Below, piece after piece: positions 36,147 through 57,075 of a stretch of DNA of 64,000 nucleotides. Under the pieces are notes generated by a model. The model was given only the letters and a program-made list of their open reading frames with translations, had not been told where the DNA came from and did not search any database. Numbering within the stretch: the stretch's first letter is position 1; each line of letters begins with the position of its first letter. Position numbers and translations under genes: made by a program. This stretch comes from an uncultured Acidobacteriota bacterium (GTDB taxonomy: Bacteria > Acidobacteriota > Terriglobia > Terriglobales > Acidobacteriaceae): the NCBI GenBank assembly GCA_903851035.1, contig CAINND010000025.1:1-64000 (forward strand). Reading direction: 5' to 3'.

Positions 36147-36199
36147 AGGGCAACTCCACGATCTACAAGACATAAGCAGGTTTGAATACGAGTAGCGAT

Positions 36200-36236
36200 G
36201 AGCAGCCTTTGGAATTCACAAGGGCTGCTCTTTTTT
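36200..36236 (+). terminator. Rho-independent terminator
   Basis: GAGCAGCC (36200-36207) pairs with GGCTGCTC (36223-36230) and is followed by six T. It closes the giant gene and isolates it from the TPR gene at 36416. The rest of the gap (36237-36415) shows only a weak -10-like TATAGT at 36337. Confidence 0.85.
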
Positions 36237-36415
36237 CAGGGCTGTCACCGTCGGCCGCTGCTTGTGGCATCGGAGCAACACTATCCTCTCGGACAAAAAG
36301 TGACGGGCATCACAAACGGCTGTGGTTTCGAGGGCATATAGTAGTCCGGGTTGGGTATGAGAGTAGAGGCCGCCCGGCGTGGCCACTCCGCAATTTTCCT
36401 AAGAGGATGAAGCAT

Positions 36416-39336: not shown

Positions 39337-39424
39337 CGACACATTCCATGCAGCATCCACAGGCTGGATTCCGGCACAATGGCTTCGCGGCGTTGATCCT
39401 TGCAATACGCAGACAGGAGATGCG

Positions 39425-41542: not shown

Positions 41543-41871
41543 ATATAACTCTTTATACGTATATAGCTTAGATACGGACGTCCCAAGTCACGCATGGTGG
41601 AGAAAAGCTGCCGAACCCGGCGCTCAGCGTCAATGGCGGACCCGGCGGCAGATTTGGTTGGGGCATTTCACATATAGAGAGTGGGTGTATGCGTAAGAAC
41701 TCGCAGCCGGGCGACGGCCTTGCGGAGCAAGTACTCAAATAGACACCTATTTAGCCCTATTTAACGGTTTGTATGTTGTTGATAAGAAATAGTTATGAGT
41801 ATTTTTTCAACATCCCGCCGAGTGGTTGCGACAACGGCGATGCAATTGCATATAGGTAGATGGAGGCAGAT
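41543..41871 (+). promoter_or_regulatory. Gene-free leader before the 16-haem cytochrome, with possible RNA structure
   Basis: About 330 bases without a gene. CTGCCG (41608-41613) can pair with CGGCAG (41646-41651) around an inner GC-rich region, and CTTGC-GGA-GCAAG forms a small hairpin near 41720. A 12-bp palindrome (41840-41851, ATGCAATTGCAT) lies just before the ribosome site GGAGG. I compared it by eye with the GEMM (cyclic dinucleotide) riboswitch pattern common before cytochrome genes and found no match. Confidence 0.35.
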
Positions 41872-43317
41872 GTGAAGTCAGTCCGCAAGATTCTAGTCAA
41901 CATGATTCTGATGAGCGCGGCCTGTACGGCAGCCTGGGCGGGAGTCCATCCCGTTCCGCTGGATCCGAAGGCGGACCCCTCCACCTGCGCGCAGTGTCAT
42001 GAGGACAAGACCAAAGGGAAGTCGGTCCATACGGCGATTGCCATGGGCTGTACGAGCTGTCACGAGATCCGGGCCCGCAAGGATGTAACCCGCGTTAAGC
42101 TGACCACCACCACCACGGTCGCCCTCTGCATCACCTGCCACGCCGACAAAAAAGCCGCCGACATTAAGGGAAAGATTCACCCCCCGGCCGTTCGTGACTG
42201 CGTGAAGTGCCACGACCCGCACGCCTCCGAAAACAAAAATCAGCTTCTGAAGCCTGCGAGCGGCGACAGCAAAGACACCAATCTTTGCCTGACCTGCCAC
42301 AAGATGGGCGTGGACGTACCCAAGGACGGCAGCCGCCACGCGGCGCTGGACATGGGTTGCGACACCTGCCACGTTACGCACAAGACGGGCCAGCGCGGCA
42401 AGCGCGAATTCGATTATCACCTGACCAAAGACGCTCCGGCGCTCTGCATTGACTGCCACGATCCGAAGGACGCGACGCTGCAGAAGGCGCACCAGGGCCA
42501 GCCCTTCGGCACGGCCAACTGCCTGAACTGCCACGATCCGCACCAGTCGGCAGGCAAGCACCTGATGGCGCGCTTCACCCACGCTCCCTTTGCCGGTGGC
42601 CAGTGCGACAGCTGCCACGCTCCGGCCAAGAGCGGCAAGGTGGTGTTGACGGCAGCCACCCCGAAAGAGATTTGCCTGACCTGCCACAGCGACAAGAGTG
42701 AGCAGATTGAAAAGGCCAAGGTGCAGCATCCGGGAGCCATGGGCGATTGCACGGATTGCCACAATCCGCATGCCAGCAGCCAGGCCGGTTTGCCCAAGAC
42801 GAATGGCGTTGACATCTGCCTGGGCTGCCATGCCGATCAGGCGGCGCAGGGCAAAAAGGCTCATGTGCACCAGCCGGCTTTTGAGCTGGGCTGCGGCACC
42901 TGCCACGAGCCGCACGGCGGAGAGAATCTGCACCTGTTGCGCGCCGACAGTCCGAACAAGCTTTGCCTGGAGTGCCACGGACCGGACTCCAAGCCCGCCA
43001 AGCTGGAGAGCGAGCACGCGGTCACAATCTTCGACGGCAAGGTGAAATTGCCGGACGATTACTTCAGCACGGTCTCGGTTCTGCCGTTGCAGTATGGCGT
43101 GGGTCATCCGGTTCCGAATCATCCAGTGTCGGATGTGAAGGACTTCCGTGACAGCACCAAGATTTTGAAGGCGATGAATTGCCTGACCTGCCATCAGCCG
43201 CATTCTTCCAAGAATGCTGACCTGCTGGTAAAGGATCAGGAGAACAACAAGGCATTCTGTGCGACCTGTCACCAGGGTGACATTGCGGCGCAGGTAAAGA
43301 AACAGGGGGCGATGTAG
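41872..43317 (+). CDS. 16-haem c-type cytochrome
   Basis: A 481-residue exported cytochrome with 16 CXXCH motifs, the first at residues 39-43 and the last near 463, many extended as CHDPH, CHNPH or CHQPH. A signal peptide covers residues 1-23. GTG 41872 is chosen because GGAGG lies 5 bases upstream; ATG 41860 overlaps that site. Haem density is one per 30 residues, typical of a periplasmic or outer-membrane electron conduit. A gap without haem at about 375-440 separates the last two haems. The next gene, an NHL propeller, begins at the base after the stop codon. Confidence 0.92.
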   Translation: MKSVRKILVNMILMSAACTAAWAGVHPVPLDPKADPSTCAQCHEDKTKGKSVHTAIAMGCTSCHEIRARKDVTRVKLTTTTTVALCITCHADKKAADIKGKIHPPAVRDCVKCHDPHASENKNQLLKPASGDSKDTNLCLTCHKMGVDVPKDGSRHAALDMGCDTCHVTHKTGQRGKREFDYHLTKDAPALCIDCHDPKDATLQKAHQGQPFGTANCLNCHDPHQSAGKHLMARFTHAPFAGGQCDSCHAPAKSGKVVLTAATPKEICLTCHSDKSEQIEKAKVQHPGAMGDCTDCHNPHASSQAGLPKTNGVDICLGCHADQAAQGKKAHVHQPAFELGCGTCHEPHGGENLHLLRADSPNKLCLECHGPDSKPAKLESEHAVTIFDGKVKLPDDYFSTVSVLPLQYGVGHPVPNHPVSDVKDFRDSTKILKAMNCLTCHQPHSSKNADLLVKDQENNKAFCATCHQGDIAAQVKKQGAM

Positions 43318-44613
43318 ATGTTGAACGTTGGCAAGAAGCACATGATGAAGTTCGGAGTCTCGGTGCTCCTGCTGATCGCCTTCGGGTCGATTTTGCCTAC
43401 CTCTGCGCATGCGGACAAGAAAACGGACAAGAAGAAAGCCGCACCCGCGGTAGCCAAACCTTCCGACGGGTTGAACTGGGTGGACGGCGTGCCGGATTTC
43501 ACCACGATCGTCTTCCCGCCGGCGCCGGCGGTGCCGCGCATCCGCTACCTGGATTACTTCTCGTCTTCGCTGCCGGAGTTGCCGAAGGTTGAGCGCCAGA
43601 AGCAGAAGGCCGGCTGGATGGATCGCCTGGCCGGTGTGGACAACAACGAGGGCGACAAGAAGGCTCCCAAGATTCGTTATCACCTGTTTGCGCCGTATGG
43701 CCTGGCGGTGGATTCCAAGGGCCTGCTCTATATTGCGGACACCAAGGTGGGCGCGGTCTTCATCTTCAACACGGAAAACGATCATGTTGAGCTGATCAAG
43801 GCGGGCACGGATGCGCAGTTCAAGAGCATCTTCGGCCTGGCCATTGACGATGCCGATCACCTGTTTGTTTCCGATGGCGGGCGCCACGAAATTCTCGAAT
43901 TCGACGCCGAGCACAAGTATGTAGGCTCGTTTGGCCTGCACGATCTGCGCACGCCGGCCGGCATCGCCATTGATCTGGAGAACCGCTTCCTGTATGTGGC
44001 GGACGCGGAGCTGGATCAGGTTGTCGTCTTTGATGCCGACTCGCACGCGGTGTTGCGCAAGCTGGGCACGACGGGCAAGAACCACACGCTGACCGATCCG
44101 GGCAACTTCAGCAAGCCGTCGAACGTGGCTGTGGGCAAGGGCGGCGATGTATTTATCAGCGACACGATGAATGACCGGGTCGAGGTTTTTGACGCCGACG
44201 GTAACTTCATCCGCACCTTTGGGCAGAACGGCGACGCGGTGGGCAACTTTGCCCGCCCCAAGGGCATTGCGGTGGATACCGACGGTCATGTTTGGGTGGC
44301 AGACGCCATGCTGAACCGCCTTCAGGTGTTTACCCCCGATGGCCAGGTGCTGATGTCGTTTGGCGGATACGGGATTGGGCCGGCGCAGTTCCAGGCGCTG
44401 ACCGGCTTGACCTTTGACGCCAAGCGCAACCGCCTGTTTGCCGCCGAGCAGATTTATGGTCGAGTTCAGATGTTCCGCTACTACACGGATGACGAAGCGC
44501 GGGCAGAGATTGCCAAGCGCCGCGCCGGTAAGAGCGACGAGGCGGCAAAGGCAAAGGCGGGCGAGGTGAAGAGCGCGCCGCAGCTTAAGTTGCCGCCGGA
44601 GGCCAAGCCGTAA
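43318..44613 (+). CDS. Exported NHL-repeat beta-propeller protein (copy 1)
   Basis: A 431-residue protein with a signal peptide (about 1-32; the strongest version starts at the internal Met 10). A Lys-rich segment and a Pro-rich region (FPPAPAVPRIRYLDYF) precede about six NHL repeats (120-395), with motifs such as PYGLAVDSKGLLYIADT and PKGIAVDTDGHVWVADA. A charged Lys/Ala tail ends the chain. Its gene abuts the 16-haem cytochrome gene without a gap, so the two are surely co-expressed. NHL propellers recur in cytochrome-filament and outer-membrane conduit loci. It is related to the protein at 50101. Confidence 0.9.
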   Translation: MLNVGKKHMMKFGVSVLLLIAFGSILPTSAHADKKTDKKKAAPAVAKPSDGLNWVDGVPDFTTIVFPPAPAVPRIRYLDYFSSSLPELPKVERQKQKAGWMDRLAGVDNNEGDKKAPKIRYHLFAPYGLAVDSKGLLYIADTKVGAVFIFNTENDHVELIKAGTDAQFKSIFGLAIDDADHLFVSDGGRHEILEFDAEHKYVGSFGLHDLRTPAGIAIDLENRFLYVADAELDQVVVFDADSHAVLRKLGTTGKNHTLTDPGNFSKPSNVAVGKGGDVFISDTMNDRVEVFDADGNFIRTFGQNGDAVGNFARPKGIAVDTDGHVWVADAMLNRLQVFTPDGQVLMSFGGYGIGPAQFQALTGLTFDAKRNRLFAAEQIYGRVQMFRYYTDDEARAEIAKRRAGKSDEAAKAKAGEVKSAPQLKLPPEAKP

Positions 44614-44658
44614 GAGGGCTGGCAAAAAGATTTAGCAGTCTCTAGTAGGCTGTTAATG

Positions 44659-44729
44659 CAGGGGCGAAAGTCCCTGGTAAGGGCAAGACAGGAAGACAAA
44701 AAATAGTAGTTGCTGATCATATCAGGAGG
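44659..44729 (+). promoter_or_regulatory. Leader hairpins before the first 4-haem cytochrome
   Basis: A 7-bp stem with a GAAA tetraloop (44659-44665 with 44670-44676, one G-T pair) is followed by a small inverted repeat CTGAT/ATCAG (44713-44717, 44721-44725) that overlaps the start of the very strong ribosome site AGGAGG (44724-44729). Such a layout could control translation. I know no riboswitch class that fits. Confidence 0.4.
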
Positions 44730-44738
44730 TTTACTAAA

Positions 44739-45851
44739 GTGAAAAAGATTCTCTTTGTGATGGCTCTGGTTGTTCTGGCCGCCGGCATGATGCTGGCCCA
44801 GACCACTCCCGGTACACCGGTTGCACTGCCCCTGCAGGGCGGCATCGCCGGCGCTACCTTTACTGGCAACGTTACCGGCCAGCTGAACTACATCCCGAAC
44901 TACGACGTCATGGGCGCGCACGAAAACGGCGGCCGTGGTTGCGCAGGTTGCCACGCTCCTCACAACGGAGCCAAGGGTAACGGCGGTACGGCTACTGGTT
45001 ACGGCAACTGGGCTTCGGCTCAGGGCGGCCTCTGGGGCGAAGACACCAGCGGCATCATGACCGGCTACGCGGGCGGAATCACCTTCAACGCCGGCAACAG
45101 CCACCACAGCGGCGTTCTGACCTGGGGCGCAGCTGCCCTGGTTCCGGCGACTGCCTGGACCGACTCGACCTACACCGGTGTTGCTACCTGCCTTAGCTGC
45201 CACGATGGCGTCAATGCCACCGGCGCCATGCTGAGCGGCTCTGCCTATGAGCAGGCTTTCGGCCTGTTGAACGGCGCAGCTCCTGTGGGCTTCAACACCA
45301 ACCGCAACGGCGCCCTGAGCACCGCGCTCTACGGCCCGAATGCGATCCCCACCTTCCTGGGCGGCGTGACTGGCCTGGGCTACAACTACCAGCACCCGGT
45401 AGGCCAGACGGCCAACCTGGGCGCCGTTCTGGGCACCGTTCTGACGAACCCCGCTTATGGTCTGTCTGCCGGCGTCACGAATGCTTCGATCAAGGTGACG
45501 GCCCTGACTCCTCAGAGCCCGTATGCTAACTTCGTGGCCACGTACTATCCGACCGCGTTGACTGCTACGGTTTCGCCGACTGGCAACACCAATGCTGGCA
45601 ACAACTTCGTGGTTTGCACCACCTGCCACAACCAGCACAACATGGCTGTGTACGCTGGAACTCGCGGCGGCGGCGGATTGCCGACCGGCGTGACCCAGGT
45701 TCGCACCATCTTCTTCGTCAACGGCGGCTACAACCCGGGCGCTCCCTATGACCCGACGCACGTGCCTTCGACGATGCGCTTCTGCCAGCAGTGCCACTTC
45801 TCGTTCGCTTCCGAAAACTACGGCGCGACGAACGTTGGTACCGCGTACTAA
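44739..45851 (+). CDS. 4-haem c-type cytochrome, OmcE-like motif order (copy 1)
   Basis: A 370-residue exported cytochrome with only four CXXCH motifs: 68-72 (CAGCHAPHNG), 151-155 (CLSCHDG), 293-297 (CTTCHNQHN) and 349-353 (CQQCH), and a conserved His-Pro (YQHPVGQ, about 219) between haems 2 and 3. This order resembles OmcE-type cytochromes that polymerise into extracellular filaments. The long spacers are rich in Gly, Asn, Thr and Ala. The signal peptide is residues 1-20. Translation starts at GTG 44739 with an ideal AGGAGG site, suggesting high expression. The filament role is an inference. Confidence 0.88.
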   Translation: MKKILFVMALVVLAAGMMLAQTTPGTPVALPLQGGIAGATFTGNVTGQLNYIPNYDVMGAHENGGRGCAGCHAPHNGAKGNGGTATGYGNWASAQGGLWGEDTSGIMTGYAGGITFNAGNSHHSGVLTWGAAALVPATAWTDSTYTGVATCLSCHDGVNATGAMLSGSAYEQAFGLLNGAAPVGFNTNRNGALSTALYGPNAIPTFLGGVTGLGYNYQHPVGQTANLGAVLGTVLTNPAYGLSAGVTNASIKVTALTPQSPYANFVATYYPTALTATVSPTGNTNAGNNFVVCTTCHNQHNMAVYAGTRGGGGLPTGVTQVRTIFFVNGGYNPGAPYDPTHVPSTMRFCQQCHFSFASENYGATNVGTAY

Positions 45852-45876
45852 TTTGGCCCTTAAAGCCGGTTAGTGG

Positions 45877-45908
45877 GGGGAGGGGGAGTATTCCTCCTCC
45901 CCTCTTTT
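45877..45908 (+). terminator. Rho-independent terminator
   Basis: A 10-bp stem (45877-45886 with 45893-45902, one G-T pair) of mostly G and C is followed by TCTTTTC. It would let the first 4-haem gene make an abundant separate mRNA. Confidence 0.8.
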
Positions 45909-46054
45909 CACGAATAAAGAACGCTTTATCGCAATGCAACAAGTTTGATTTATGTGAATTTCAGGGAATCGTCGAATTTATTAAAGACGGTTGCTTCGGC
46001 TGTGGGTAAAGTAATCCTATAGAGCCGCCGTTGGATGTTGCAGGAGGATGTCTT

Positions 46055-47131
46055 GTGAGAAAGCTTCGCAAGTTGTTGGCATTTCTCGCGCTGGCCGCCG
46101 GGGTCATGGCGGGCCAGACATCTGCCGGAAAGGCGGGCGCCAAGCCCATGGATGGCGGCACAACCTTTCTCGGCAACATTACAGGCGAGCTCAGCTACAT
46201 ACCAAACTACGATGTGATGGGCGGCCATGAAAACGGCGGGCGCGGCTGCGCCGGGTGCCACTCCCCACACAACGGAGCCAAAGGCAACGGCGGCACGCAA
46301 GCCGGATATGGCACCTATGCGGTTGCCCAGGGCGGATTGTGGGGGCAGGATACAAGCGCCATCATGTCCAGCTACACGGCCGGCATCACCTTCAACGGCA
46401 ACAGCACAAGACACAGCTCACGACTGACCTGGGGCACGGCGGCGCTGAACCCGATGACGGCCTGGTCGGACAGGACCTACACGGGCGTAGCGACCTGCCT
46501 GAGCTGCCACGATGGCGCAGTGTCCTCCGGGGCCATGATGAGCGGCATCAGCTACGAGCAGATGTTCGGACTGCTGAACGGCGTGGGGATTGGCCTGAAT
46601 TCGAATCGCAACAAATCATTGTCCAGCACGCTATACGGCAACAACTCGATCCCCACGTTCCTTGGGGGCAGCACGGGAGCAGGGTACAACTATCAGCATC
46701 CGATTGGGCAGAATGCCAACCTGGGCGCGGTGCTGGGCGCGGTGCTGACCAATAGCGGTTTTGGACTGGTATCCGGCATCACCGGCAATAAGATCTCGAT
46801 CACGACACTGACCCCGAACAGTCCGTATGCGAATTTTGTGGCAACCTATATACCTTCGGCCGTACTGGCTACGGTGCCGCAATCGGGCAACGCGGCCGAC
46901 AACTTTCTGGTATGCACGACTTGCCATAATCAGCACAACATGAGCGTGGTGAAACAGGTGCCGGCAGGAGCAACGCAGGTGCGCACGGTGTTTTTCGTGC
47001 GTGGCGGCTATAACCCGGGAGCGCCGTTTGACCCCACGCACGAACCTTCAACGATGCGCTTCTGCGAACAGTGCCACTTTGCCATGTCTGCCGAGTACTA
47101 CGGGGCAGTGAACATTGGGACGGCATATTAA
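46055..47131 (+). CDS. 4-haem c-type cytochrome, OmcE-like motif order (copy 2)
   Basis: A 358-residue paralogue of the preceding cytochrome, sharing the whole layout: CAGCHSPHNG, CLSCHDG, YQHPIGQ, CTTCHNQHN, CEQCH and the C-terminal NIGTAY. The signal peptide is about residues 1-20. GTG 46055 has AGGAGG 7 bases upstream. Codon use is less biased than in copy 1, which suggests lower expression and perhaps a minor or alternative subunit. It has its own upstream region of about 200 bases after a terminator, and is followed by the PPIase gene. Confidence 0.88.
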   Translation: MRKLRKLLAFLALAAGVMAGQTSAGKAGAKPMDGGTTFLGNITGELSYIPNYDVMGGHENGGRGCAGCHSPHNGAKGNGGTQAGYGTYAVAQGGLWGQDTSAIMSSYTAGITFNGNSTRHSSRLTWGTAALNPMTAWSDRTYTGVATCLSCHDGAVSSGAMMSGISYEQMFGLLNGVGIGLNSNRNKSLSSTLYGNNSIPTFLGGSTGAGYNYQHPIGQNANLGAVLGAVLTNSGFGLVSGITGNKISITTLTPNSPYANFVATYIPSAVLATVPQSGNAADNFLVCTTCHNQHNMSVVKQVPAGATQVRTVFFVRGGYNPGAPFDPTHEPSTMRFCEQCHFAMSAEYYGAVNIGTAY

Positions 47132-47199
47132 TCAGTAAAACGGACGGGGCGCAGTCTAGTAGCCCTGGACGTATTTTCAGCCTCTAGGATGGAGTTTCC

Positions 47200-48246
47200 A
47201 TGAAGTGGAAGTTTGGCCTTACCGTTGCGCTTGCCGCAACCACGATTTATGGACAAGCGCAGGTAGCCTCGCACAGTCCCGTACTGCAGAAAGCCGCGCC
47301 GCAAGCTGCGCCGCAGAATATGCAGTTGAATGCCACGCCGATGTTCCAGCCGACCGGCAAGCCGGTTGCCAAGATCAACGGAGTGGTGCTGACCGATCGG
47401 GATCTGCTGCGCGAAATGGTGACGATTTTCCCCTACGCGCGCACCCACAACGGCTTCCCCAAGGGTCAGGAAGAGATGATCCGCAAGGGCGCGCTGGCGA
47501 TGATCGAATTCGAGGAGCTGGTGTATCAGGAGGCGGAGCGCCGGCAGATGACCGTGCCGCCGGAGAAGGTGAAGCGGGCAGAAAATGCCTTCCGGAGCAA
47601 CTTCCAGTCTGAAGAGGAATTTGAGCATTACCTCAAGATGGAGATGAATGGCTCGCGTGAGCAGTTCCGCAAGATGGTGCGGCGCTCACTGTTGATTGAG
47701 GCCTATCAGAAAGCCCGCCTGGATGAGCCCTCCAAGGTGACCCTGGCCGAGGCGCGCGCCTACTACGACAAGAACTCGAAGAAGTTCATGCACGGTGAGA
47801 TGGTGCAGTTCCAGACGATCTCCGTTCTACCCCCGGAGAATGCCACCGCGGACGTGAAGGAGAAAGCCCACAAACATATTATGGAAGTGTGGGAGCAGGC
47901 CAAAAAGACCAAGAGCTATAACGAGTTCGGGCTGCTGGCGGAAAAGTACTCCGAGGACGACTACCGGGTAAACATGGGCAACCACAAACTTGGCGATCGG
48001 GGCGAGGTTCCGGAGCCGGTGCAGAAGATTCTGGACAAAATGAAGCCAGGCCAGGTCAGCGAAATCTGCCAGTTCGGACCGTACTATGCGATCTTCCGCC
48101 TGGAGGCCAGAAAGCCCGGCGGGCTGACCCCGTTTGCCGAAGTGAAAACAAAGATGTTGGATGACATGCACAAAGCAAAGTACGACAAATTACGCGGGGA
48201 ACTCGACAAAAAGTTAAGGGCCAGCGCCAAGGTCGAGGAATATTAG
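47200..48246 (+). CDS. Periplasmic parvulin-type peptidyl-prolyl isomerase
   Basis: A 348-residue protein of the SurA/PrsA/PpiC type. A signal peptide (1-20) is followed by an N-terminal SurA-like helical domain beginning KINGVVLTDRDLLREM (about 58-180), a parvulin domain (about 190-310, with GDRGEVPEPVQKIL and LKPGQVS-like KMKPGQVSEI), and a basic tail. It should help exported cytochromes or the next-door beta-barrel to fold. The ribosome site is GGATGGAG. PPIases are found beside filament cytochrome genes in other electron-transfer loci, as recalled from the literature. Confidence 0.92.
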   Translation: MKWKFGLTVALAATTIYGQAQVASHSPVLQKAAPQAAPQNMQLNATPMFQPTGKPVAKINGVVLTDRDLLREMVTIFPYARTHNGFPKGQEEMIRKGALAMIEFEELVYQEAERRQMTVPPEKVKRAENAFRSNFQSEEEFEHYLKMEMNGSREQFRKMVRRSLLIEAYQKARLDEPSKVTLAEARAYYDKNSKKFMHGEMVQFQTISVLPPENATADVKEKAHKHIMEVWEQAKKTKSYNEFGLLAEKYSEDDYRVNMGNHKLGDRGEVPEPVQKILDKMKPGQVSEICQFGPYYAIFRLEARKPGGLTPFAEVKTKMLDDMHKAKYDKLRGELDKKLRASAKVEEY

Positions 48247-48268
48247 AATCGCCTCCAGAGGGGGAGGA

Positions 48269-50119
48269 ATGATCCGGCTCGCCAAAGCAGAATACTGGTT
48301 TGCAGCACTCCTGTTGATATTAATGGCAGGAGTGCCCGCGCACGCGCAAGGAACAGACGCAGACTATCATGTTGATGGATTTCATCTGCAGCATCTTTCC
48401 GCGAGCGCTTCGGCAGGATATGACGGGCAGTACTCTAGCGATCAAAGCTCCACACATGACCTTGGGTTGGGCGGGAGCCTTAGCACCGGCGGCTATTATT
48501 ACAACCCAAACTTTCTTTCCTTTAATGCGAGCACCTACTACAACCGCGCGGAGAGCAACGCTGATTCCACAAATCTGCTTACAGCCAAAGGCTACAGCTT
48601 CAGCAGCCATATCTTTGGCGGTAGCAGCACTCCGGGAAATGTGATGTTAGGGCAGTCCTGGGGCAACAGCGGCACCTATGGAATTCCCGGACTGGTGGGA
48701 GCAACCAGCACTAGTGACAATCGAGACTTTGGTGTCTCCTGGTTATTCAAGAGGGTCAGCTTTCTCCGGAATGTTTCAGTTGGATTTGCCGACGACGCAA
48801 GCCACATGGAGATACTGGGCCTGGGCGTGACCGCCGATTCACACATCAAATCATACGGGATTGGCACAGGCGGCTATCTGGTCGCTGGTTTTCCGCTGAG
48901 TGGCAGCTATCAACACATTAATTCAACTACTTCCAGCAACCTGGGTGATGGTGGTGGCACGGTAAGCGGCGGCACGGGCACGGTAGATGCCTTCAAATTC
49001 GCAACCGGACACACCCTGCCCTTCCGCGGCAAACTGACAGTGTCTGCCTATCGCATGATTTCCAATAGCACGTCGGGCAAGGAGTCAGGGAGAAACGTCA
49101 GCGATGAAGTGGATGCTGCGATCTCCTCACGTGTGTGGCGGCTGCCGATATCCGCGAACATTGATTACAACGACAACGTGTACGGCGCCATGATCCAGGA
49201 GTTGAATCTCTCCGGCCAAACCGTACTGGTGGCGGACAATTCACCGCGCATCGGTACGTTGCTGATGAATGTCTCCAGTTCGTACAGCTTCCCACATCAC
49301 ATCTTTGTGACCGGCTACGCCAGCCGTCAGAATGAGTATCTGGGCGGGATCACAGTGGGGCAAACCTCGTTTGGCGGGAATGCGGCTTACAACTTCGGAA
49401 AATTTCTGAATGGACTGACCATCATCGCCGGGGTTCATGATTCCGCATCGCAGGTGGGCAATAACGGATTAGGAATGATTGGTACAGCCACCTACACAAG
49501 GAATGTGAATGGGTGGCATATGTTTGCCAATCTCAACTACAACCAGAACGTGCAGACGGTACTGGCGCTGTATACCAGTTCGTCGGTGGCGACATCGGCC
49601 TCGGTACGCCGTCAGGTACGCCATGGGTTGCAGTTCAGTGTGAGCGCTGGATACGGGCGCACGGTGTTCAACCAGCAAAGCGGAACCTCCAGCTATTCTG
49701 AGAATTTGTCAGCCACCATCTCGCACCATAAGCAGTCCGCATCTTTCTCCTACGCACGTTCAGGCGGCGAGGCAATCGTTACCAACACGGGACTGTCGCC
49801 AATACCTATTCCCGGAGTTCCCAACGTGTCACAGCCCTTTGGCGGGCACAGTTACTCGGCCGGGTATTCGAATAACTTGATCAAGCGTATGTCGGTGGCG
49901 GTTGGCTGGTCCCGATTTGACAGCGAAAGCACGACATTGGGAGCGCTGAGCAACATCGCCTCCACGACCTACACGGGCAGCATGAATTACACGTATCGGA
50001 AGCTGAATTTCATCGCCAATGCGGCGCGCGTGCAGCAGGGGGTAAACGCCTCCTCGGCGGTGCCCACGCAGTACACGGTGTATTACTTTGGGGTCTCGCG
50101 ATGGTTCAACTTCTTCTAG
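48269..50119 (+). CDS. Outer-membrane beta-barrel protein (616 aa)
   Basis: A signal peptide (1-27, ending AHAQ) is followed by about 590 residues of alternating amphipathic strands rich in Gly, Ser, Tyr and Asn, ending VYYFGVSRWFNFF, with the terminal Phe typical of barrel proteins handled by the BAM complex. Strand-like pieces such as GLQFSVSAGYGRTVF and KLNFIANAARVQ are regular through the C-terminal half. The size suits 20-26 strands. In this context it may be the porin sheath of a porin-cytochrome conduit. Its ribosome site is GGGGAGGA. The next gene begins inside its last 19 bases. Confidence 0.85.
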   Translation: MIRLAKAEYWFAALLLILMAGVPAHAQGTDADYHVDGFHLQHLSASASAGYDGQYSSDQSSTHDLGLGGSLSTGGYYYNPNFLSFNASTYYNRAESNADSTNLLTAKGYSFSSHIFGGSSTPGNVMLGQSWGNSGTYGIPGLVGATSTSDNRDFGVSWLFKRVSFLRNVSVGFADDASHMEILGLGVTADSHIKSYGIGTGGYLVAGFPLSGSYQHINSTTSSNLGDGGGTVSGGTGTVDAFKFATGHTLPFRGKLTVSAYRMISNSTSGKESGRNVSDEVDAAISSRVWRLPISANIDYNDNVYGAMIQELNLSGQTVLVADNSPRIGTLLMNVSSSYSFPHHIFVTGYASRQNEYLGGITVGQTSFGGNAAYNFGKFLNGLTIIAGVHDSASQVGNNGLGMIGTATYTRNVNGWHMFANLNYNQNVQTVLALYTSSSVATSASVRRQVRHGLQFSVSAGYGRTVFNQQSGTSSYSENLSATISHHKQSASFSYARSGGEAIVTNTGLSPIPIPGVPNVSQPFGGHSYSAGYSNNLIKRMSVAVGWSRFDSESTTLGALSNIASTTYTGSMNYTYRKLNFIANAARVQQGVNASSAVPTQYTVYYFGVSRWFNFF

Positions 50120-51195
50120 TTCGGGTGCGGGTCTGCCGCGCCATGGTGCTACTGGCCTGCCTAATGCTGTTGCCATGCTTTTCGGCAGCCATGAGCCGCT
50201 CCGAAAAGACCAGGCAGATTGCAAACCCGCCTGATCTTTTGCTGGACGGAGATCGAAAGCTGAGCTGGGTGCGCAGTTTTACCAGTGAGCGCGAGGTGCG
50301 GGGCAAGCTTGGCTTTTGGACTAAAGTACTAGACGTGGTGGCCGGTGAACCCGACTATCATCGCGTGATACGGCCTTATGGTATCGCGGTGGACTCGCGG
50401 GGGCGCGTGATTGTGACTGATCCCGGCGCCATGGGGGTTCACGTCTTCGATTTTGAGCAGCACAAGTATAAGTTTTTGGATCGCAAAGAGAAATCCAAGT
50501 TTCCCATGCGTGCGCCGCAATGTGTTGCGGTGGATGCCGAGGACAACATCTATGTGACGGATTCGGAGGCGGGAGAGATATTCGTCTTCGACTCGCACCT
50601 GAGTTTCCGACACACCATCGGCAGTTTGCGTGGCGGCGAAGGTTACTTCAAGCGCCCCACCGGCATTGCGGTGGATTCACATAGCAGGCGCATTTATGTA
50701 ACAGACACGCTGCGCGACCAGATTTTTGTTCTGGACTTTGAAGGCAGCGTACTGGCCAAGATCGGCAAGCACGGCTCGGGTGCCGGCGAACTGTACTTCC
50801 CCACCGAGTTACGGTTGCTGCCCGAAGGATTGATGGTTGTGGACGCCATGAACTTCCGGCTGCAATTTTTTGCACTGGACGGCACTCCCCAGGGAAGCAT
50901 GGGGCAGCTTGGCGATAGCGTGGGAGATATGTATCGACCCAAGGGCGCGGCAGTAGATTCGGAAGGACATTATTATGTAGCCGACGCGGCACTGGGCATG
51001 GTGCAGGTATTCAATCGCCAGGGCCAGTTGCTGTACTACTTCGGGAATCGCGGAGTGGAATTTGGTGAATTTCAACTGCCATCCGGTTTGTGGATCGACA
51101 AGAACGACCGAATTTATATAGTGGATTCCTTTAATTCGAGGATCCAGGTATTCCAGTATTACGGCGCGAAGAAGGCCGAGGGAGCGACGAAGTGA
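50101..51195 (+). CDS. Exported NHL-repeat beta-propeller protein (copy 2)
   Basis: A 364-residue protein; a hydrophobic export signal lies at about residues 12-30 (MVLLACLMLLPCFSAA). It is followed by about six NHL repeats (80-355) with IRPYGIAVDSRGRVIVTD, FKRPTGIAVDSHSRRIYVTD and FYVADAALG-like YYVADAALG motifs. The start may be ATG 50101, overlapping the barrel gene, or ATG 50143, which gives a cleaner signal peptide. It shares the propeller and order with the protein at 43318. Its end overlaps the next cytochrome start by 4 bases, so they are coupled. Confidence 0.9.
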   Translation: MVQLLLVRVRVCRAMVLLACLMLLPCFSAAMSRSEKTRQIANPPDLLLDGDRKLSWVRSFTSEREVRGKLGFWTKVLDVVAGEPDYHRVIRPYGIAVDSRGRVIVTDPGAMGVHVFDFEQHKYKFLDRKEKSKFPMRAPQCVAVDAEDNIYVTDSEAGEIFVFDSHLSFRHTIGSLRGGEGYFKRPTGIAVDSHSRRIYVTDTLRDQIFVLDFEGSVLAKIGKHGSGAGELYFPTELRLLPEGLMVVDAMNFRLQFFALDGTPQGSMGQLGDSVGDMYRPKGAAVDSEGHYYVADAALGMVQVFNRQGQLLYYFGNRGVEFGEFQLPSGLWIDKNDRIYIVDSFNSRIQVFQYYGAKKAEGATK

Positions 51196-53192
51196 AGAAA
51201 CGTTTGGCTGTGGCCTTATTTTGTCTTTCCGCGGTGGCCGCCAACGCGCAAGTCACCGCCAGCGTGCTTGGTGCGCACAATCTATCCAGCACGCAGTCGC
51301 CTACCGTGGGTGGCCTGCCCCCGTGCCTGTTTTGCCATGCTCCGCACAATGGTGTAAAGAATGCCACCGCACTGTGGAGTCAAAAGCTCTCCACGGTGCA
51401 GAATTACACGTTATACACCAGCGGTACATTGATGAATGTACCGCAGCAACCAGTTCTGGGCAAGAACAGCAACCTGTGCCTCAGTTGCCATGACGGCACG
51501 GTGGCTCCGGGCAGCACGAGCCCCTATGGCGTCATCAAAATGAGCGGCGCCATGGCCCCGATGGATGTATTTGGCAGCGACCTGAGTTCGGTACATCCCT
51601 TCAATTTCAAGCTCCCGCTGGTGGCGGCCAACAATGTGTTACCGCAGGTGACGGCTAATCCTGGCAGCACAGCCAACCCGGCCGTGCATATGATCCAGAA
51701 CAATATCCAGTGCGAGACCTGCCACAATCCGCATGTGCAAAGCCTGGACGCCTCGAATATGTTCCTGGTGGTGGACAACGGCAGTTCAGCACTGTGCCTG
51801 GCCTGCCATATTTCCACTCCGACAGAGACGGTAATGAACAAGCCCGGCACGCATCCGACAAATTCAACGGCGGGTGCCACGTCGCACAGCAACAGCACCA
51901 AGCCCGTCTCATACAACGCCATGACGGCCTGGTCAACGAGCGCGCACGCGCAGGGCGGGTTCCAGGTTGCCAAGGGTGCCAATGCCGGGCCTTACGGAAA
52001 TCTGCGCAAGAACGCCTGCATGAGTTGCCACACTACCCACAAGGGACAGGGCAAAACAGTACTGCTGGCGGCTCCGAAGCAAACCGTTGCCAGCATGGAC
52101 GCCAGCGCGCAGACCTGCATGAACTGCCACAACGGCGGCTCCGTGGTGTCACCGGCAATCACGAACGTGTACCAGGAGTTCAGCAAGAAGGGGCATCCTT
52201 TCCCGACCGGCAGCAACACACACTCGCACACGGAAAGCACGGTTCTGGATCAGAACCGCCATGCCACATGCGTGGATTGTCATGAACCGCACGCGGCACA
52301 GAAGTCGGGCAACTTCAACACGCTGACGATTCGTCCTTCGCAAAGCGGCGTAAACGGCGTCAGTGCTACTGACGGCAACACGTTGGTAACTCCGGCCGTG
52401 TACCAGTACCAGACCTGCCTGCGTTGCCACGGCAACAGCACGGGCAAGCAGCAGCCGATCACCTTTGGCTACCTGCCGCAGCGGCTGGTAAGCAATGGCG
52501 ACCAACTGAACCTGTTGCCTGCCCTGGGTTCCACGGCCACCAGCAGCCATCCCATTTCGCATGACCGGCAGAGCCCGTACGGGCAGCCTAGCCTGCTGAA
52601 AGCGATGTGGAATATTGACGGGCACACACCCGGACGCATGATGGGATCGCGCCTGTTGTGCACCGACTGCCACAATGCGGATGACAACCGCGAATTCGGC
52701 GGCACCGGACCCAATGGGCCGCACGGTTCGCAGTACAGTCACATCCTGGAGCGCCGCTACGAATTCAGCCAGGTGGCGCCCGGAACCGGCGTGGGTGTTG
52801 GTCCGGGCAGTTCCATCCAGAACCTGCTGCCCATGGTTGTGGATCCGGCGGCCAACGGTCCGTACGCGATGTGCGCCAAGTGTCATGATTTGGCCAATAT
52901 CCTTTCCAACACCAGTTTCAGCAAACATTCGTCGCACCTGAATGCCGGGTTCTCCTGCTCCACCTGCCACACGGCTCATGGAGTAGGGGCTGCCACCGCC
53001 GGACTCTCCGGCGAACGGCTGGTGGATTTCGATATCAAGGTGGTTGGGCGAAACGATGTCACCATGGCACCCATCACATATAATCGTGCCGCGGGGACCT
53101 GCTCGCTGAAGTGCCATAACTACAACCACTTTTCCAATGGAACGGTGGCGGTGTCGCAGGGGCTGAGAAACCTTCGAGTGATCAAGCATTGA
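51192..53192 (+). CDS. Multihaem c-type cytochrome (11 CXXCH plus one CX3CH)
   Basis: A 666-residue exported cytochrome. The signal peptide is 1-20; the first haem motif CLFCHAPHNG is at 45-49, followed by CLSCHDGTVAPGS, as in OmcE-like N-termini. Eleven CXXCH motifs are spread over the chain. A twelfth motif near the end (residues 637-642, CSLKCH) has three residues between the cysteines, a rare CX3CH form. Translation begins at GTG 51192 inside the stop of the NHL gene. Large size and sparse haems suggest an outer-surface protein. The next gene starts in its stop codon (TTGA). Confidence 0.9.
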   Translation: MKKRLAVALFCLSAVAANAQVTASVLGAHNLSSTQSPTVGGLPPCLFCHAPHNGVKNATALWSQKLSTVQNYTLYTSGTLMNVPQQPVLGKNSNLCLSCHDGTVAPGSTSPYGVIKMSGAMAPMDVFGSDLSSVHPFNFKLPLVAANNVLPQVTANPGSTANPAVHMIQNNIQCETCHNPHVQSLDASNMFLVVDNGSSALCLACHISTPTETVMNKPGTHPTNSTAGATSHSNSTKPVSYNAMTAWSTSAHAQGGFQVAKGANAGPYGNLRKNACMSCHTTHKGQGKTVLLAAPKQTVASMDASAQTCMNCHNGGSVVSPAITNVYQEFSKKGHPFPTGSNTHSHTESTVLDQNRHATCVDCHEPHAAQKSGNFNTLTIRPSQSGVNGVSATDGNTLVTPAVYQYQTCLRCHGNSTGKQQPITFGYLPQRLVSNGDQLNLLPALGSTATSSHPISHDRQSPYGQPSLLKAMWNIDGHTPGRMMGSRLLCTDCHNADDNREFGGTGPNGPHGSQYSHILERRYEFSQVAPGTGVGVGPGSSIQNLLPMVVDPAANGPYAMCAKCHDLANILSNTSFSKHSSHLNAGFSCSTCHTAHGVGAATAGLSGERLVDFDIKVVGRNDVTMAPITYNRAAGTCSLKCHNYNHFSNGTVAVSQGLRNLRVIKH

Positions 53193-54745
53193 GTGAAGTA
53201 GTACATCCAAATCAGGAACCCAACGAGCCGGAGCAAGTCTTGAAGGCTGCTCCGGCTATCTTTATGGGCCAGTGGAAGAAGGCAGCGGCTTCACCGGTGC
53301 TGCGCTTTCTTATGCTGTTGCTGCTATTGACGGCAGGGGCCTTCCGGGAGGCGCGGCTGGTCTCTGCGTTTTCCAGCGACGATATGTGGCGCTATCTGCG
53401 CGTGGGCAGTTGGATCTTGCAAAACCATTCGCTGCCACGCACCGGCATCTTCTCTCAGCAGGCGGCGGCACCGTGGGTGGATTTGAACTGGCCCTACGAA
53501 CTGCTGCTGACCGTGAGCTGGCATCTGGCCGGATTGATGTCCTTCCCCCTGGTACTAATGGTGATGAAGGCCGTGCTGGCCGCTGCAATCTTCTACCTGG
53601 CGGGCGGAATGCGTCATTATTGGCGCGCGTTGCTGCTGTCGGCCGCCGTGCAGGTGACGCTGCTGGATCTGCTGCCGCTGCCGGTGTTCTTCTCCATACT
53701 TTTCTTTACGCTTACGCTTCGGGCGTTGCTGGAGGTGCGTCGCAGCCACAACCTGCGCTCCATTCTCTGGTTGCCGTTACTGTTCTGGCTGTGGATCGCA
53801 ACGGATGCGCACTTCCTGCTGGGCTGGCTGCTGCTGGTGGTCTTCCTGCTTGCGGAAGGTTGGGAGAGGTTGTTTGATGGGTTTGGCGATACATCCGGCG
53901 GTCAAGCGCGTGTTCCTTTTGCGCATCTGAGCGGAGTGGTTGCGGCCTCGGTGGGTGTGGTGTTGCTGACGCCCTACTCATTCCGCTGCATCGCGCCAGC
54001 CTTTGACTCCTGCTACAGCGGGACGCTCTTCAAGAACTTCGGCTTTATGGCGGCAATGAGCTTCCGCCAGGCTCCGCATTTTGTGGTGCTGCTGCTGTTG
54101 CTGGCCGCATGCTTTGTCATGGGCCGGCGCAATATGCGCGATGCTTTCCATATCCTGCTGATATTGGTCTTCAGCAGCCTGGGGCTTCGAATCCAGAATG
54201 ACGTTTGGACGCTAACCGTGATTGCCGTGGCATTGCTGTCCTGCGCACCAGGAAAATTGTTACAGTGCGAAGCGCCGGAAGACATGGCAACAAAACGACT
54301 ACCGTTTTACGGCGCATTGACGTTCGCCACGGCGGCGCTGATTGCAGTGGCCGCGTTACTGCTGCCCAACAATCAGGAAATTGAGCGGCGGTTGGCACTC
54401 GTTGTGCCGCAAAAGGCGTGCGACTTCATCGAGAAGACACATCCGTCCGGGCCAATCTTCAATGAATACCGCTGGTCGGGATACATGATGTGGAGGTTGC
54501 CGGAATATCCCGTGGCGATGGATTCCCGCCTGCCACTTTATGGCGGCGATGCGCAGGAGCTGTACTTTCAGGTGGTAATGGGCAAGCAGAGAATGGACTC
54601 TCTGGAGACCTTTACCAACGCACGCGTCTTCCTGCTGCCGACACAGTGGGGAATGACACGCGCCTTGACCGAGATACCCGAACTGAAGCAACAGTTCCGG
54701 GAAGTGTATCGCGACGATCTAGCCGTTGTGCTGGTTCGCCAGTAG
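53189..54745 (+). CDS. GT-C-like polytopic membrane protein (518 aa)
   Basis: About ten hydrophobic segments at residues 35-420, then a soluble C-terminal domain. The first loop reads SSDDMWRYLRVGSWILQNHSLPRTGIFS, and the late motif is FNEYRWSGYMMW...MDSRLPLYGG. These are the same two signatures as in the proteins at 37183 and 54764. I infer a GT-C glycosyltransferase; a Leu-rich membrane protein of another kind cannot be excluded. TTG 53189 overlaps the preceding cytochrome stop; an internal ATG at 53264 is an alternative start. It is coupled to the cytochrome gene. Confidence 0.7.
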   Translation: MSEVVHPNQEPNEPEQVLKAAPAIFMGQWKKAAASPVLRFLMLLLLLTAGAFREARLVSAFSSDDMWRYLRVGSWILQNHSLPRTGIFSQQAAAPWVDLNWPYELLLTVSWHLAGLMSFPLVLMVMKAVLAAAIFYLAGGMRHYWRALLLSAAVQVTLLDLLPLPVFFSILFFTLTLRALLEVRRSHNLRSILWLPLLFWLWIATDAHFLLGWLLLVVFLLAEGWERLFDGFGDTSGGQARVPFAHLSGVVAASVGVVLLTPYSFRCIAPAFDSCYSGTLFKNFGFMAAMSFRQAPHFVVLLLLLAACFVMGRRNMRDAFHILLILVFSSLGLRIQNDVWTLTVIAVALLSCAPGKLLQCEAPEDMATKRLPFYGALTFATAALIAVAALLLPNNQEIERRLALVVPQKACDFIEKTHPSGPIFNEYRWSGYMMWRLPEYPVAMDSRLPLYGGDAQELYFQVVMGKQRMDSLETFTNARVFLLPTQWGMTRALTEIPELKQQFREVYRDDLAVVLVRQ

Positions 54746-54763
54746 CAAGGCGCTGAGAATTCT

Positions 54764-56242
54764 ATGAACTTTTTTGACGAATTGAGAGCCATGGGGAGAC
54801 GCAAGGCTGTGCAGTTGGCAGCCCTGGGAGGCCTGTTCGGCCTCTTCCTCTTCTTCTCCCTCTCCACGCGGGGATACCTGCTTGACCCCGATATATGGTG
54901 GCACCTGAAGGTTGGCGACTGGATTGTGGCGCACAAGGCCGTGCCCTGGACGGGGATCCTCTCCCGCACGGCAGCCACCAAGCCCTGGGTGGCCTATAGT
55001 TGGGGCTTTGAGGTGATCCTCTCTCGGGTGTATGCCTGGTTCGGCGTGGTTGGCTTTGCCTACTACGGCATACTGCTGGGTCAAATGGTGTCGGCATCGT
55101 TGTTTGGCGTATGTTATGCGATCTCCGGCCGCTTCTGGCGCTCGTGGCTGCTGACCTTTCTGGGCACTCTGGCGTTTGCTTACTCGCTCTACCCGAGGCC
55201 GGTTTTCTTCAGCATGTCGCTGTTTGCAATCATGCTGTACATGATGCTGCGCGCCAAACGCACGGGACAAATTGAAATCCTATATTGGCTGCCGCTGATG
55301 TTCTGGGTGTGGGCGAACCTGCATATTCAATTCATCTACGGACTGGCCACGCTGGGATTGATGCTTACCGTGGAAATCGCATTGCATTTTGCAGCGCGCT
55401 GGGGCTGGCCGTTGACGGGCGTGGAGGGACCATCCCTGCCGTTGGGCAAATTGATGGGAGTGCTGGCCGCTTGCTTTGCCGTGGCCTGCATCGGACCCTA
55501 TGGCTACTATCTGTTTGTTGTGGTGGCAAAGTACTCCAAGGCGACGCAGACATATTTTGTGATTCAGGAATTGCAGGCGCCCAGCTTTACCAGCTACACC
55601 TACTTCATATTTCTCTTTGTCATCCTGGCGGCCTTCTATGTAGTGGGCAAGCGCCAGCGGGTGGACGTTTTCCGCCTGGCATTGCTGACGGTTGCCACCA
55701 TACTGTCGTTCCGCACGGTGCGTGATGCATGGTTCCCGGTGATTCCGGCGGCGCTTTTTTTGGCCGATGCACCGCTGCGTGAAGCTGAGGCGGAAGATCG
55801 CATTGGTCTGCCAGCCTTTGCCGGATTCACGGCCGTCATGGCGTTGTTTGCCATACTGCTGGGCAGCAATATGGGCTTTACCCTGCGCGGCATCGACTAC
55901 ACGATCAGCCGGGAATATCCGGTGGACGCCGCGAATTTTGTGCGCCGCCTCAATCCTCCCGGCCCGCTCTACAACGACTTTAATTTTGGCGGTTTTCTCA
56001 CCTGGTACATGCCGGACTATCCGGTAGTAGTAGATGGGCGCAACGACCTCTACGGGGATGAGTTCGTCGCCAAACACATTTACTTCAACGGCGGAGACAA
56101 AACAGAGGGCGATGAGCGGCTGGATGAATCCAACGTGCTGCTGCTTGCGGCCGACTCCTCACTGGCCAAACTGCTCAAGCAGGATAAGCGTTTTCGGCTG
56201 GTGTATGAAGATCGCCTGGCGGATGTGTACCTGAAGAACTAA
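54764..56242 (+). CDS. GT-C-like polytopic membrane protein (492 aa)
   Basis: The best-conserved of the three paralogues. The first periplasmic loop is LDPDIWWHLKVGDWIVAHKAVPWTG, with the acidic residues and WWH expected for a GT-C active-site loop. About ten membrane segments lie up to residue 375, and the late motif is YNDFNFGGFLTW...VVDGRNDLYG. It starts 18 bases after the previous gene and ends at a two-way terminator (56264). I suggest it transfers sugars to an exported protein or glycan; substrate unknown. Confidence 0.72.
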   Translation: MNFFDELRAMGRRKAVQLAALGGLFGLFLFFSLSTRGYLLDPDIWWHLKVGDWIVAHKAVPWTGILSRTAATKPWVAYSWGFEVILSRVYAWFGVVGFAYYGILLGQMVSASLFGVCYAISGRFWRSWLLTFLGTLAFAYSLYPRPVFFSMSLFAIMLYMMLRAKRTGQIEILYWLPLMFWVWANLHIQFIYGLATLGLMLTVEIALHFAARWGWPLTGVEGPSLPLGKLMGVLAACFAVACIGPYGYYLFVVVAKYSKATQTYFVIQELQAPSFTSYTYFIFLFVILAAFYVVGKRQRVDVFRLALLTVATILSFRTVRDAWFPVIPAALFLADAPLREAEAEDRIGLPAFAGFTAVMALFAILLGSNMGFTLRGIDYTISREYPVDAANFVRRLNPPGPLYNDFNFGGFLTWYMPDYPVVVDGRNDLYGDEFVAKHIYFNGGDKTEGDERLDESNVLLLAADSSLAKLLKQDKRFRLVYEDRLADVYLKN

Positions 56243-56313: not shown

Positions 56314-57075
56314 TTAGTTGGCAGGCGCGGCGGGCTTGGCGCCCTTCATCATCTTGGCGTGCTGCTTGGCCTGTTTAATCAGTTCCTTTACCTGCTCAAT
56401 CTGGGGATGCTTCGGGTTGGTCTTTACCAGCGTCTCCCAGCAGGCGATGGCGCCATTCAGGTCGCCCTTGACCTGCCACTTGAGCATTCCGAGGTTATAA
56501 AGTGCGTTGGCCGACTTGGGGTCCACCTGTAGAGCCTTGTTCAAGGTAGCCAGGGCCTCATCGCCCTTGCCTCCCATAGCCTGGGCATTGGCCAGGTGGG
56601 TAAGGTTCTCGGCCGAGCCATTTACGTCCACGGCCTTCTGGTAGTAAGTGCGCGCATCGTCAAACTGTTGGGCGGCCATGTAGAAGGCGCCGATCTTGAC
56701 CAGCGTGTCCACGTCCTTGGGATTCTGTTTGAGCTGCTCGAGCAGCGGCGCCACTTTCTTCTCAGCCATGGCTTTCATCTGATCTGGCGTGGGTGGCTGC
56801 TGCGGTGCTCCACCGGGCATTCCGCCGGGCATGCCCTGGGGCATTCCGGGCTGCTGCGCAACGGGTGGTTGCGCGGCCGGGGTGGCGCTGTTGGAGCCGC
56901 GGAACAGGTATCCGACGGTGACGCCCACTACCAGGCAAAGCACTGCCATGGCATAGACCTGGGTGCTGCTCCAGCCGGCCTTGGCGGCGGGTACGGTTGC
57001 GGCTTCGGTGGCAGGCTGTGCATCTGTCTGCTGCGTCGGCTGTTCCACGGGTTGCTGCTGATTTTCTTCGCTCAT
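56314..57075 (-). CDS. Membrane-anchored TPR protein (copy 2)
   Basis: A 253-residue paralogue of the protein at 36416. A Gln/Pro/Ala-rich cytoplasmic start (1-33) precedes one transmembrane segment (about 40-58, VYAMAVLCLVVGVTVGYLF), a Pro/Gly/Met/Gln linker, and three TPR units (about 105-225). A Lys/Ala-rich tail follows. It is the only minus-strand gene in the 36-64 kb block. It may organise the envelope machinery for which the neighbouring genes code; no catalytic residue is seen. Confidence 0.87.
   Translation of the reverse strand: MSEENQQQPVEQPTQQTDAQPATEAATVPAAKAGWSSTQVYAMAVLCLVVGVTVGYLFRGSNSATPAAQPPVAQQPGMPQGMPGGMPGGAPQQPPTPDQMKAMAEKKVAPLLEQLKQNPKDVDTLVKIGAFYMAAQQFDDARTYYQKAVDVNGSAENLTHLANAQAMGGKGDEALATLNKALQVDPKSANALYNLGMLKWQVKGDLNGAIACWETLVKTNPKHPQIEQVKELIKQAKQHAKMMKGAKPAAPAN

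Follow-up and report, generated by a model that had tools for sequence, protein, structure and literature searches.

An acidobacterial variant of the Uet electron transfer locus with an OmcE-like domain at the head of its UetJ-type cytochrome

The 64-kb stretch of DNA analysed here, called the window (positions 1 to 64,000 of contig CAINND010000025.1 in assembly GCA_903851035.1, from an uncultured member of the Acidobacteriota), carries eight head-to-tail open reading frames (ORFs), g1 to g8, on its plus strand at 41860-53192. Compared by gene content and by protein profiles, the latter against Uet-like gammaproteobacterial loci, this locus represents a variant form of the published Uet (undecahaem electron transfer) system. 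Its last gene, g8, encodes a homologue of the undecahaem cytochrome UetJ whose N-terminal domain matches OmcE, the cytochrome of a Geobacter nanowire (PDB 7TFS). The OmcE-like head of UetJ-type cytochromes is the new point of this analysis. The eight genes are as follows.

41860..43317, plus strand: g1, exported 16-haem cytochrome, MtrA/DmsE-like, in the place of the UetDEG trihaem genes (CXXCH count, TIGR03508, PF22113, 6r2q_A)
43318..44613, plus strand: g2, exported NHL beta-propeller, UetH/I-like (PF01436, 5.4e-26)
44739..45851, plus strand: g3, 4-haem cytochrome, UetA-like, by profile comparisons a remote OmcE relative (4 CXXCH)
46031..47131, plus strand: g4, second 4-haem cytochrome (4 CXXCH; 68% identity to g3)
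47200..48246, plus strand: g5, exported SurA/parvulin-type peptidyl-prolyl isomerase (PPIase), UetB-like (PF13145 3.4e-16, PF00639 2.7e-10, SurA_N_3 4e-8)
48269..50119, plus strand: g6, UetC-like, predicted outer-membrane beta-barrel with 28 strands and the size of MtrB (AlphaFold2 model, C-terminal Phe)
50101..51195, plus strand: g7, NHL beta-propeller, UetH/I-like (PF01436, 5.8e-28)
51192..53192, plus strand: g8, UetJ-like cytochrome with 11 CXXCH and 1 CX3CH (profile matches to OmcE and UetJ)

The ORF list of the window and counts of the haem-binding motif CXXCH (16, 0, 4, 4, 0, 0, 0 and 11 in g1 to g8, respectively), together with Pfam matches for two NHL propellers and a PPIase and the barrel model, confirmed the gene types that a first-pass annotation had read from the sequence. 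The 12 haem sites it had counted in the last gene were also found, as 11 CXXCH and one CX3CH (CSLKCH), and its placement of the DNA in the Acidobacteriota agreed with the named close relatives. A motif count over all ORFs of the window found two or more CXXCH only in g1, g3, g4 and g8. Intergenic gaps from g1 to g8 were at most 179 bases, and the ORFs overlap at g6/g7 and g7/g8. Export signals, claimed for all eight proteins, were judged by eye at the N-termini of the translations and held with two qualifications: the signal of g4, whose ORF opens with TTG at 46031, could be seen only when the protein was read from an internal start around 46055, which is likely the true start, and for g7 the choice of start is uncertain, with an alternative at 50143.

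In the available text of the published reports, the Uet cluster uetABCDEFGHIJ is described from 'Candidatus Tenderia electrophaga' and Gallionella, with UetJ as undecahaem, UetA as tetrahaem and UetDEG as trihaem cytochromes, UetB as a PPIase, UetH and UetI as NHL proteins and UetC as a barrel (PMC10734462), and three trihaem genes with a tetratricopeptide repeat (TPR) gene among them, an undecahaem gene lying close by in Tenderia by locus tag, are also reported (PMC5371394). The window has PPIase, two NHL and 11-CXXCH counterparts of UetB, UetH/I and UetJ, and putative counterparts of UetA (4-haem) and UetC (barrel). It differs in lacking trihaem genes, in having g1, the MtrA-like 16-haem gene, and an NHL gene at the front of the cluster, in a UetA that is duplicated and divergent, in a shorter UetJ with a twelfth, CX3CH site, and in TPR genes that stand outside the cytochrome block, whereas UetF is a TPR protein within the published clusters. 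Because trihaem genes are absent and the TPR genes lie outside the block, the locus was filed as a variant of Uet and not as Uet proper. The first-pass annotation had read these genes as a complete device that moves electrons across the outer membrane and along a surface polymer; the completeness and the polymer stay proposals. A reading as an undescribed device was rejected in view of the description of Uet in PMC10734462, the cluster being the published system in variant form.

Three gammaproteobacterial loci (L208-L210) showed the published Uet layout in part and encode 11-CXXCH proteins of 830-906 aa. None of them has all ten Uet genes as fetched, and some have a 4-haem gene where a 3-haem gene was expected. 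The 542-aa ORF in the TPR position of L209 gave no TPR match, the barrel-sized ORFs of L208-L210 were not listed in a search with a hidden Markov model (HMM) of g6, and two Uet-like loci also have PPIC/SurA-type Pfam matches. Two other conduit systems were compared by description. The OetABI system with OmcX/OmcS-type filaments, from partner bacteria of anaerobic methanotrophic archaea, follows the same idea, pairing a conduit with filament cytochromes within a single locus, but other cytochromes are named for it, and the words 'NHL' and 'peptidyl' are absent from the main text available (PMC10553843). PCC3 was set aside, as its cytochromes have 10-35 haems and its description, in the available part of PMC10734462, is without PPIase or NHL proteins.

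The assignment of g8 was made with two profiles, A1, built from 18 UetJ-like proteins, and A5, built from four UetJ proteins of three Uet-like gammaproteobacterial genomes other than Tenderia. A1 and A5 aligned collinearly in hhalign over 521 columns (100%, E 8.6e-81), and therefore g8 was regarded as homologous to UetJ, with an extra CX3CH site that is C-terminal in position. This site was present in all 117 rows of the g8 class and in none of the four long UetJ proteins. Both profiles matched the OmcE structure 7tfs, A5 with 1.1e-27 and A1 with 9.9e-44, the latter over profile positions 9-208 and all four haems. A 4-haem HMM made with no UetJ sequence in it matched residues 2-207 of g8 (2.3e-36), and among 116 distinct UetJ-like proteins it gave an N-terminal match in 113. 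The protein consists of an OmcE-like tetrahaem domain (residues 2-207) and a remainder with eight haem sites, so that, in comparison with the OmcE nanowire, the OmcE-like domain is fused to eight further haem sites. In A1, the four motif histidines of the head and H29, H52, H135 and H181 were invariant, and the eight-haem part had ten invariant non-motif histidines for its eight haems. An OmcE-like head of UetJ was not found described in the literature available to us, and texts that name both OmcE and undecaheme cytochromes gave no link between UetJ and OmcE.

An OmcE-like tetrahaem stretch was also present in giant gammaproteobacterial cytochromes with 15-24 CXXCH (L203:259-3270, L204:17049-18998, L207:1699-4056 and L126:17024-19420, one of them cut by the end of the stretch). 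Cytochromes that contain an OmcE-like domain may be a wider class than UetJ.

We lean, with modest confidence, towards reading the locus as a Uet-type machine for extracellular electron transfer, in which g8 would serve as the adaptor between an Mtr-like conduit and an OmcE-type filament. Electrons from the quinone pool would reach g1 in the periplasm; the haem chain of g1 would enter or meet the g6 barrel, by which the outer membrane would be crossed, and g8, on the outer face, would receive the electrons next. Its OmcE-like head would be the first subunit of a filament made of g3 and g4. The PPIase g5 may help to fold the exported cytochromes or the barrel, and the NHL propellers g2 and g7 may be scaffold or assembly parts. 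The polymerisation, the docking and the direction of electron flow are steps that we infer. That UetJ-type proteins in general act as plug or nucleator of OmcE-type wires, with the head as first subunit and the eight-haem part docked on or in the barrel, is proposed only tentatively, and we hold it to be somewhat doubtful. In OmcE, haem 2 receives a histidine from the adjacent subunit, according to the part of the report available (PMC12203936). With the invariant histidines of the head and of the eight-haem part, ligands for a contact of this kind exist in UetJ-like proteins, which is no more than suggestive.

The wire end of this model depends on g3 and g4, which the first-pass annotation had called OmcE-like. 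For these, profile A2 was built from 13 small 4-haem proteins of other acidobacterial loci, and profile A3 from 16 sequences, namely g3, g4 and 14 relatives. A2 matched the OmcE structure 7tfs with 4.4e-53 and PDB entry 9yuq with 5.5e-48, while A3 matched 9yuq_N with 7.1e-8 for the whole sequence and 0.0012 for the best stretch. Chain N of 9yuq, a 218-aa 'Putative multiheme cytochrome c' present as 16 chains in one entry, was the PDB sequence nearest to g3 and g4; 9yuq may be a further OmcE-type assembly. Within A2 and, separately, within A3, all four haem motifs were kept and eight histidines, four of them in the motifs, were invariant, and those of A3 would be enough for bis-histidine ligation of four haems. 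This pattern of haems and histidines is common to A2, A3 and the g8 head. With four CXXCH each and a position beside the PPIase gene, g3 and g4 are putative UetA counterparts, and A3 aligned to A2 in hhalign (99.4%, E 2.7e-21, 143 columns). The alignment spans haems 1 and 2 and the His-Pro that follows. Taken together, these comparisons indicate that g3 and g4 are remote relatives of OmcE through intermediates. The earlier claim of two OmcE-like 4-haem cytochromes stood in this remote form; the most OmcE-like sequence of the window is the N-terminal domain of g8.

The window has two 4-haem genes, 68% identical, and most related clusters have one. A third copy, 67% identical to g4, was found near a contig end of the own genome (G000, contig C64:39012-40091, locus L043); the 15.8 kb fetched around it contained no further cytochrome gene.

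The conduit end depends on g1 and g6. In the NCBIfam scan, g1 scored 187.3 bits against the DmsE-type model TIGR03508 over several stretches (cut-off 192.2), and in the Pfam scan it scored 48 bits against the MtrC/MtrF-like domain PF22113, over the cut-off of 30; g4 reached 29.3 bits with the same domain, just below the cut-off, and g8 gave no match. The only PDB match of g1 at E ≤ 1e-5 was chain A of 6r2q, the MtrA of the Mtr complex (4.4e-20), which carries an unrelated name label in the PDB entry. As tandem CXXCH proteins look alike, g1 is called MtrA-like and no more than that. The OmcA/MtrC model TIGR03507 gave no match in g8 at E ≤ 0.01 and only 41.4 of the required 209.3 bits in g1.

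Neither Pfam nor NCBIfam gave a match for the g6 product at E ≤ 0.01. Its AlphaFold2 model was a large beta-barrel with 28 strands of at least 10 residues (mean predicted local distance difference test score, pLDDT, 75.7; predicted template modelling score 0.61), and the C-terminal residue, Phe, was kept in at least 90% of alignment A4. In Foldseek, MtrB (6r2q_B) gave template modelling (TM) scores of 0.50/0.48 with the g6 model, the top TM among the 50 rows listed and fifth by E-value. VIA, which re-examined the Foldseek matches only, so that families outside that list remain possible, ranked MtrB 37th by Z (Z 14.6) with a root-mean-square deviation (rmsd) of 5.2 over 464 residues, the longest low-rmsd alignment among the matches listed. 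The model thus predicts a large outer-membrane beta-barrel of MtrB size. The porin-cytochrome reading of the first-pass annotation was supported in this sense, with an Mtr-like barrel and an MtrA-like cytochrome. Compared with MtrCAB (PDB 6R2Q), g1 has 16 haem sites and MtrA 10, the g6 model has 28 strands and the MtrB barrel 26, and a UetJ-type protein stands in the place of MtrC.

Several results weigh against a wire joined to a conduit through g8, and the first group concerns the wire. A3 gave no match to 7tfs at E ≤ 1, and a phmmer search with g3 against PDB sequences likewise returned nothing at E ≤ 1. The alignment of A3 to A2 is confined to the first half of the protein, with haems 3 and 4 outside it. 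When A2 was searched against the own genome, the g8 head came first (5.8e-35), followed by pieces of g1 and of the C64 paralogue, and g3 and g4 were not listed; the UetA of the window has diverged and the UetJ head has not. An AlphaFold2 model of g4 from the 16-sequence alignment had a pLDDT of 35.3 and no usable fold. Co-variation of UetA with the UetJ head was tried as evidence of docking. Pairs from the same cluster were more alike than random pairings, at a level that none of 5000 permutations reached, but against nearest-neighbour clusters only 30 of 65 comparisons were positive (p 0.68), and co-variation was rejected as docking evidence because the effect vanishes beyond relatedness. Since the A3-A2 match covers only half of the 4-haem protein and the barrel can be called no more than MtrB-sized, confidence in the joined machine was slightly lowered, and that in a conduit without a wire slightly raised.

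These points lend some weight to a conduit without a wire, in which g3 and g4 would be monomeric or short-oligomer carriers, extracellular or periplasmic, with which the g8 head only exchanges electrons. Beyond their distance from OmcE, g3, g4 and their close relatives are often larger (ORFs of 282-401 aa, as against 196-380 aa in other loci), and the OmcE-like head recurs in the 15-24-haem proteins. Such carriers would still have to be squared with the eight histidines invariant in A2 and A3, four in haem motifs, and with the corresponding 4-haem genes elsewhere in the phylum, which are close OmcE relatives by the match of A2 to 7tfs. We judge this explanation unlikely.

The second group concerns the conduit. 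Above MtrB in Z stood LptD (Z 17.2, rmsd 7.1 over 391 residues), the FimD ushers (Z 15.8/15.7, rmsd 5.3/5.2 over 341/329 residues) and many smaller porins, aligned over less than 300 residues with rmsd values of about 10-15, and for this reason g6 is called large and MtrB-sized and no more. For 19 of 86 UetJ-like genes (the set is defined below), no other cytochrome with at least 8 CXXCH lay within 10 kb, so that an MtrA-like neighbour is not universal. The g1-like genes also vary across loci, with about 5 to 21 CXXCH, or are sited elsewhere, and the most constant block is made of the UetJ-like, NHL and barrel-sized genes. This would suit a different wiring in which the eight-haem part of g8 threads the g6 barrel, the head lies outside, and g1 is a periplasmic shuttle. 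Against that wiring stand the MtrA likeness of g1 within this locus (4.4e-20) and the alignment of the g6 model to MtrB over 464 residues, and we regard it as rather unlikely.

A periplasmic respiratory or detoxifying multihaem system with no extracellular role is very unlikely. Multihaem cytochromes also serve in the reduction of nitrite, sulfite and dimethyl sulfoxide, and the DmsE-type match of g1 (TIGR03508) would fit such a role; however, no catalytic subunit was found in the locus by Pfam or NCBIfam, a large outer-membrane barrel is predicted for g6, and g8 carries an OmcE-like domain.

In the joined machine that we favour, electron flow is probably outward. The own genome has one place with COX1 (haem-copper oxidase), several with Cytochrom_C_asm and one NapC/NirT-type match over the cut-off, and it gave no match to the RuBisCO large subunit. 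COX1 with no RuBisCO match fits a heterotroph that disposes of electrons, and is no proof of it. The opposite direction, an uptake of electrons (from Fe(II), minerals or partner cells) such as has been put forward for the Uet of Tenderiales and Gallionella, draws on the ties of the published loci to cathode and iron oxidisers (in the available text of PMC10734462, PMC5371394 and PMC12575090). We consider it improbable here, given the missing RuBisCO match and the UetJ-like genes in records of Desulforhopalus and Anaeromyxobacter, although sequence alone cannot give the direction of the electrons.

The same gene order was looked for in other Acidobacteriota by a search with g4 in 61 genomes including the own one. 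Matches were found in 13 genomes, the own and 12 of 60 relatives. All 12 relatives with a 4-haem gene also have homologues of g1, g2, g5, g6, g7 and g8 in the fetched surroundings, and the order g1-g2-4-haem-g5-g6-g7-g8 was kept in 10 of them (in G001 split over two contig ends); in the other two, the g1-g2 pair and the remainder form separate blocks. A second cluster of G001 (L042) had no g7 match. CXXCH counts were constant across these loci, 16 in g1 and 11 in g8. In six test genomes searched with the OmcE-type profile at E ≤ 1e-15, three (G450, G451 and G452) had one UetA and one UetJ only, about 5 kb apart; G448 and G449 had extra copies, and the two matches of G447 lay on different contigs.

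Beyond these relatives, a single-sequence search with g8 at E ≤ 1e-20 gave matches in 32 (including the own) of the 396 genomes searched from the phylum, and an A1 search of a species-level genome collection gave at least 492 stretches encoding a relative. The best 80 of these at least 492 stretches, a choice biased to close relatives, came from Acidobacteriota, Planctomycetota, Verrucomicrobiota, Nitrospirota, Pseudomonadota, Bacteroidota, Myxococcota and Thermodesulfobacteriota (eight phyla), some being unlabelled; the labels are those in the record titles given by the submitters, and metagenome bins make up most of the records. Anaeromyxobacter oryzae Red232 has both a UetJ-like and an OmcE-type gene. 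Most phyla were grouped in the UetJ tree, which needed 14 changes where shuffled labels gave a mean of 45.2.

For the gene neighbourhoods, 29 of 117 UetJ rows with less than 5.5 kb upstream and two duplicates were removed (exact copies only, near-copies being kept), leaving 86 distinct genes in 85 loci. An OmcE-type 4-haem gene lay within 10 kb for 85 of the 86, an NHL gene directly upstream of 82, and a barrel-sized ORF before the NHL gene in 71, of which 61 had an aromatic C-terminus; the CX3CH site was present in all 86. An HMM match to g5 was found near 35 of the 86, a search that remote PPIases may escape, and several gammaproteobacterial loci have no space for a PPIase gene in the block. 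In the two Bacteroidota loci, a barrel-sized ORF was not found directly upstream. A compact arrangement of 4-haem, NHL, barrel-sized ORF, NHL and 11-haem genes without a PPIase match was seen in Gamma- and Betaproteobacteria (L203-L207, L130, L145 and L126), and in several compact loci 8-haem, 7-haem and 3-haem genes come next.

The locus is a real and conserved system of a known kind in variant form, and in the literature available to us Acidobacteriota were not found named for Uet. Undecahaem conduits and conduits of Acidobacteriota both appear in a cave metagenome study, but in the text available they are not connected (PMC13264449). The results also indicate that UetJ-type loci are more widespread than the Tenderiales, Gallionella and Leptothrix cases given in the available reports, and that they include soil and peat Acidobacteriota. 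One recurrent gene module links OmcE nanowires, Mtr-like conduits and Uet loci, and UetJ offers a candidate, open to test, for the link from cytochrome wire to outer membrane that has so far been missing. If UetJ does play this part, a single inherited module, occurring alongside UetJ-like genes across eight bacterial phyla, would comprise wire, adaptor and conduit, and there would be a concrete molecular candidate for the attachment of nanowires to the cell, which is an open question.

The cytochrome cluster is bracketed on both sides by paralogous TPR and membrane-protein genes (36182-41542 and 53189-61098), among them the following.

36182..37096, plus strand: TPR protein, possible accessory (17 of 29 subtype loci have homologues in the flank fetched)
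53189..56242, plus strand: two paralogous polytopic membrane proteins, possible accessory (GT-C-like by eye, no Pfam match)
56314..57075, minus strand: second TPR copy, possible accessory (TPRb against TPRa, 1.5e-61)

Related membrane proteins are also encoded at 36931-41542 and 58969-61098, and homologues of any of these membrane proteins lay beside 7 of the 29 subtype loci; with short flanks, this count and that for the TPR protein are lower bounds. OmcE filaments are extensively glycosylated, according to the part of the report available (PMC9473688), and membrane glycosyltransferases would therefore fit the flanking proteins, which could be such enzymes on their assignment by eye. Upstream, the 2189-aa ORF at 29538-36107 has NHL propeller repeats, an immunoglobulin-like domain and six CARDB stretches and probably encodes a large surface protein. 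On the downstream side, some 10 kb away from the cluster, a Cytochrom_C_asm (CcmF/NrfE-type) gene occupies 63217-64000, with matches continuing to 64290 on the contig.

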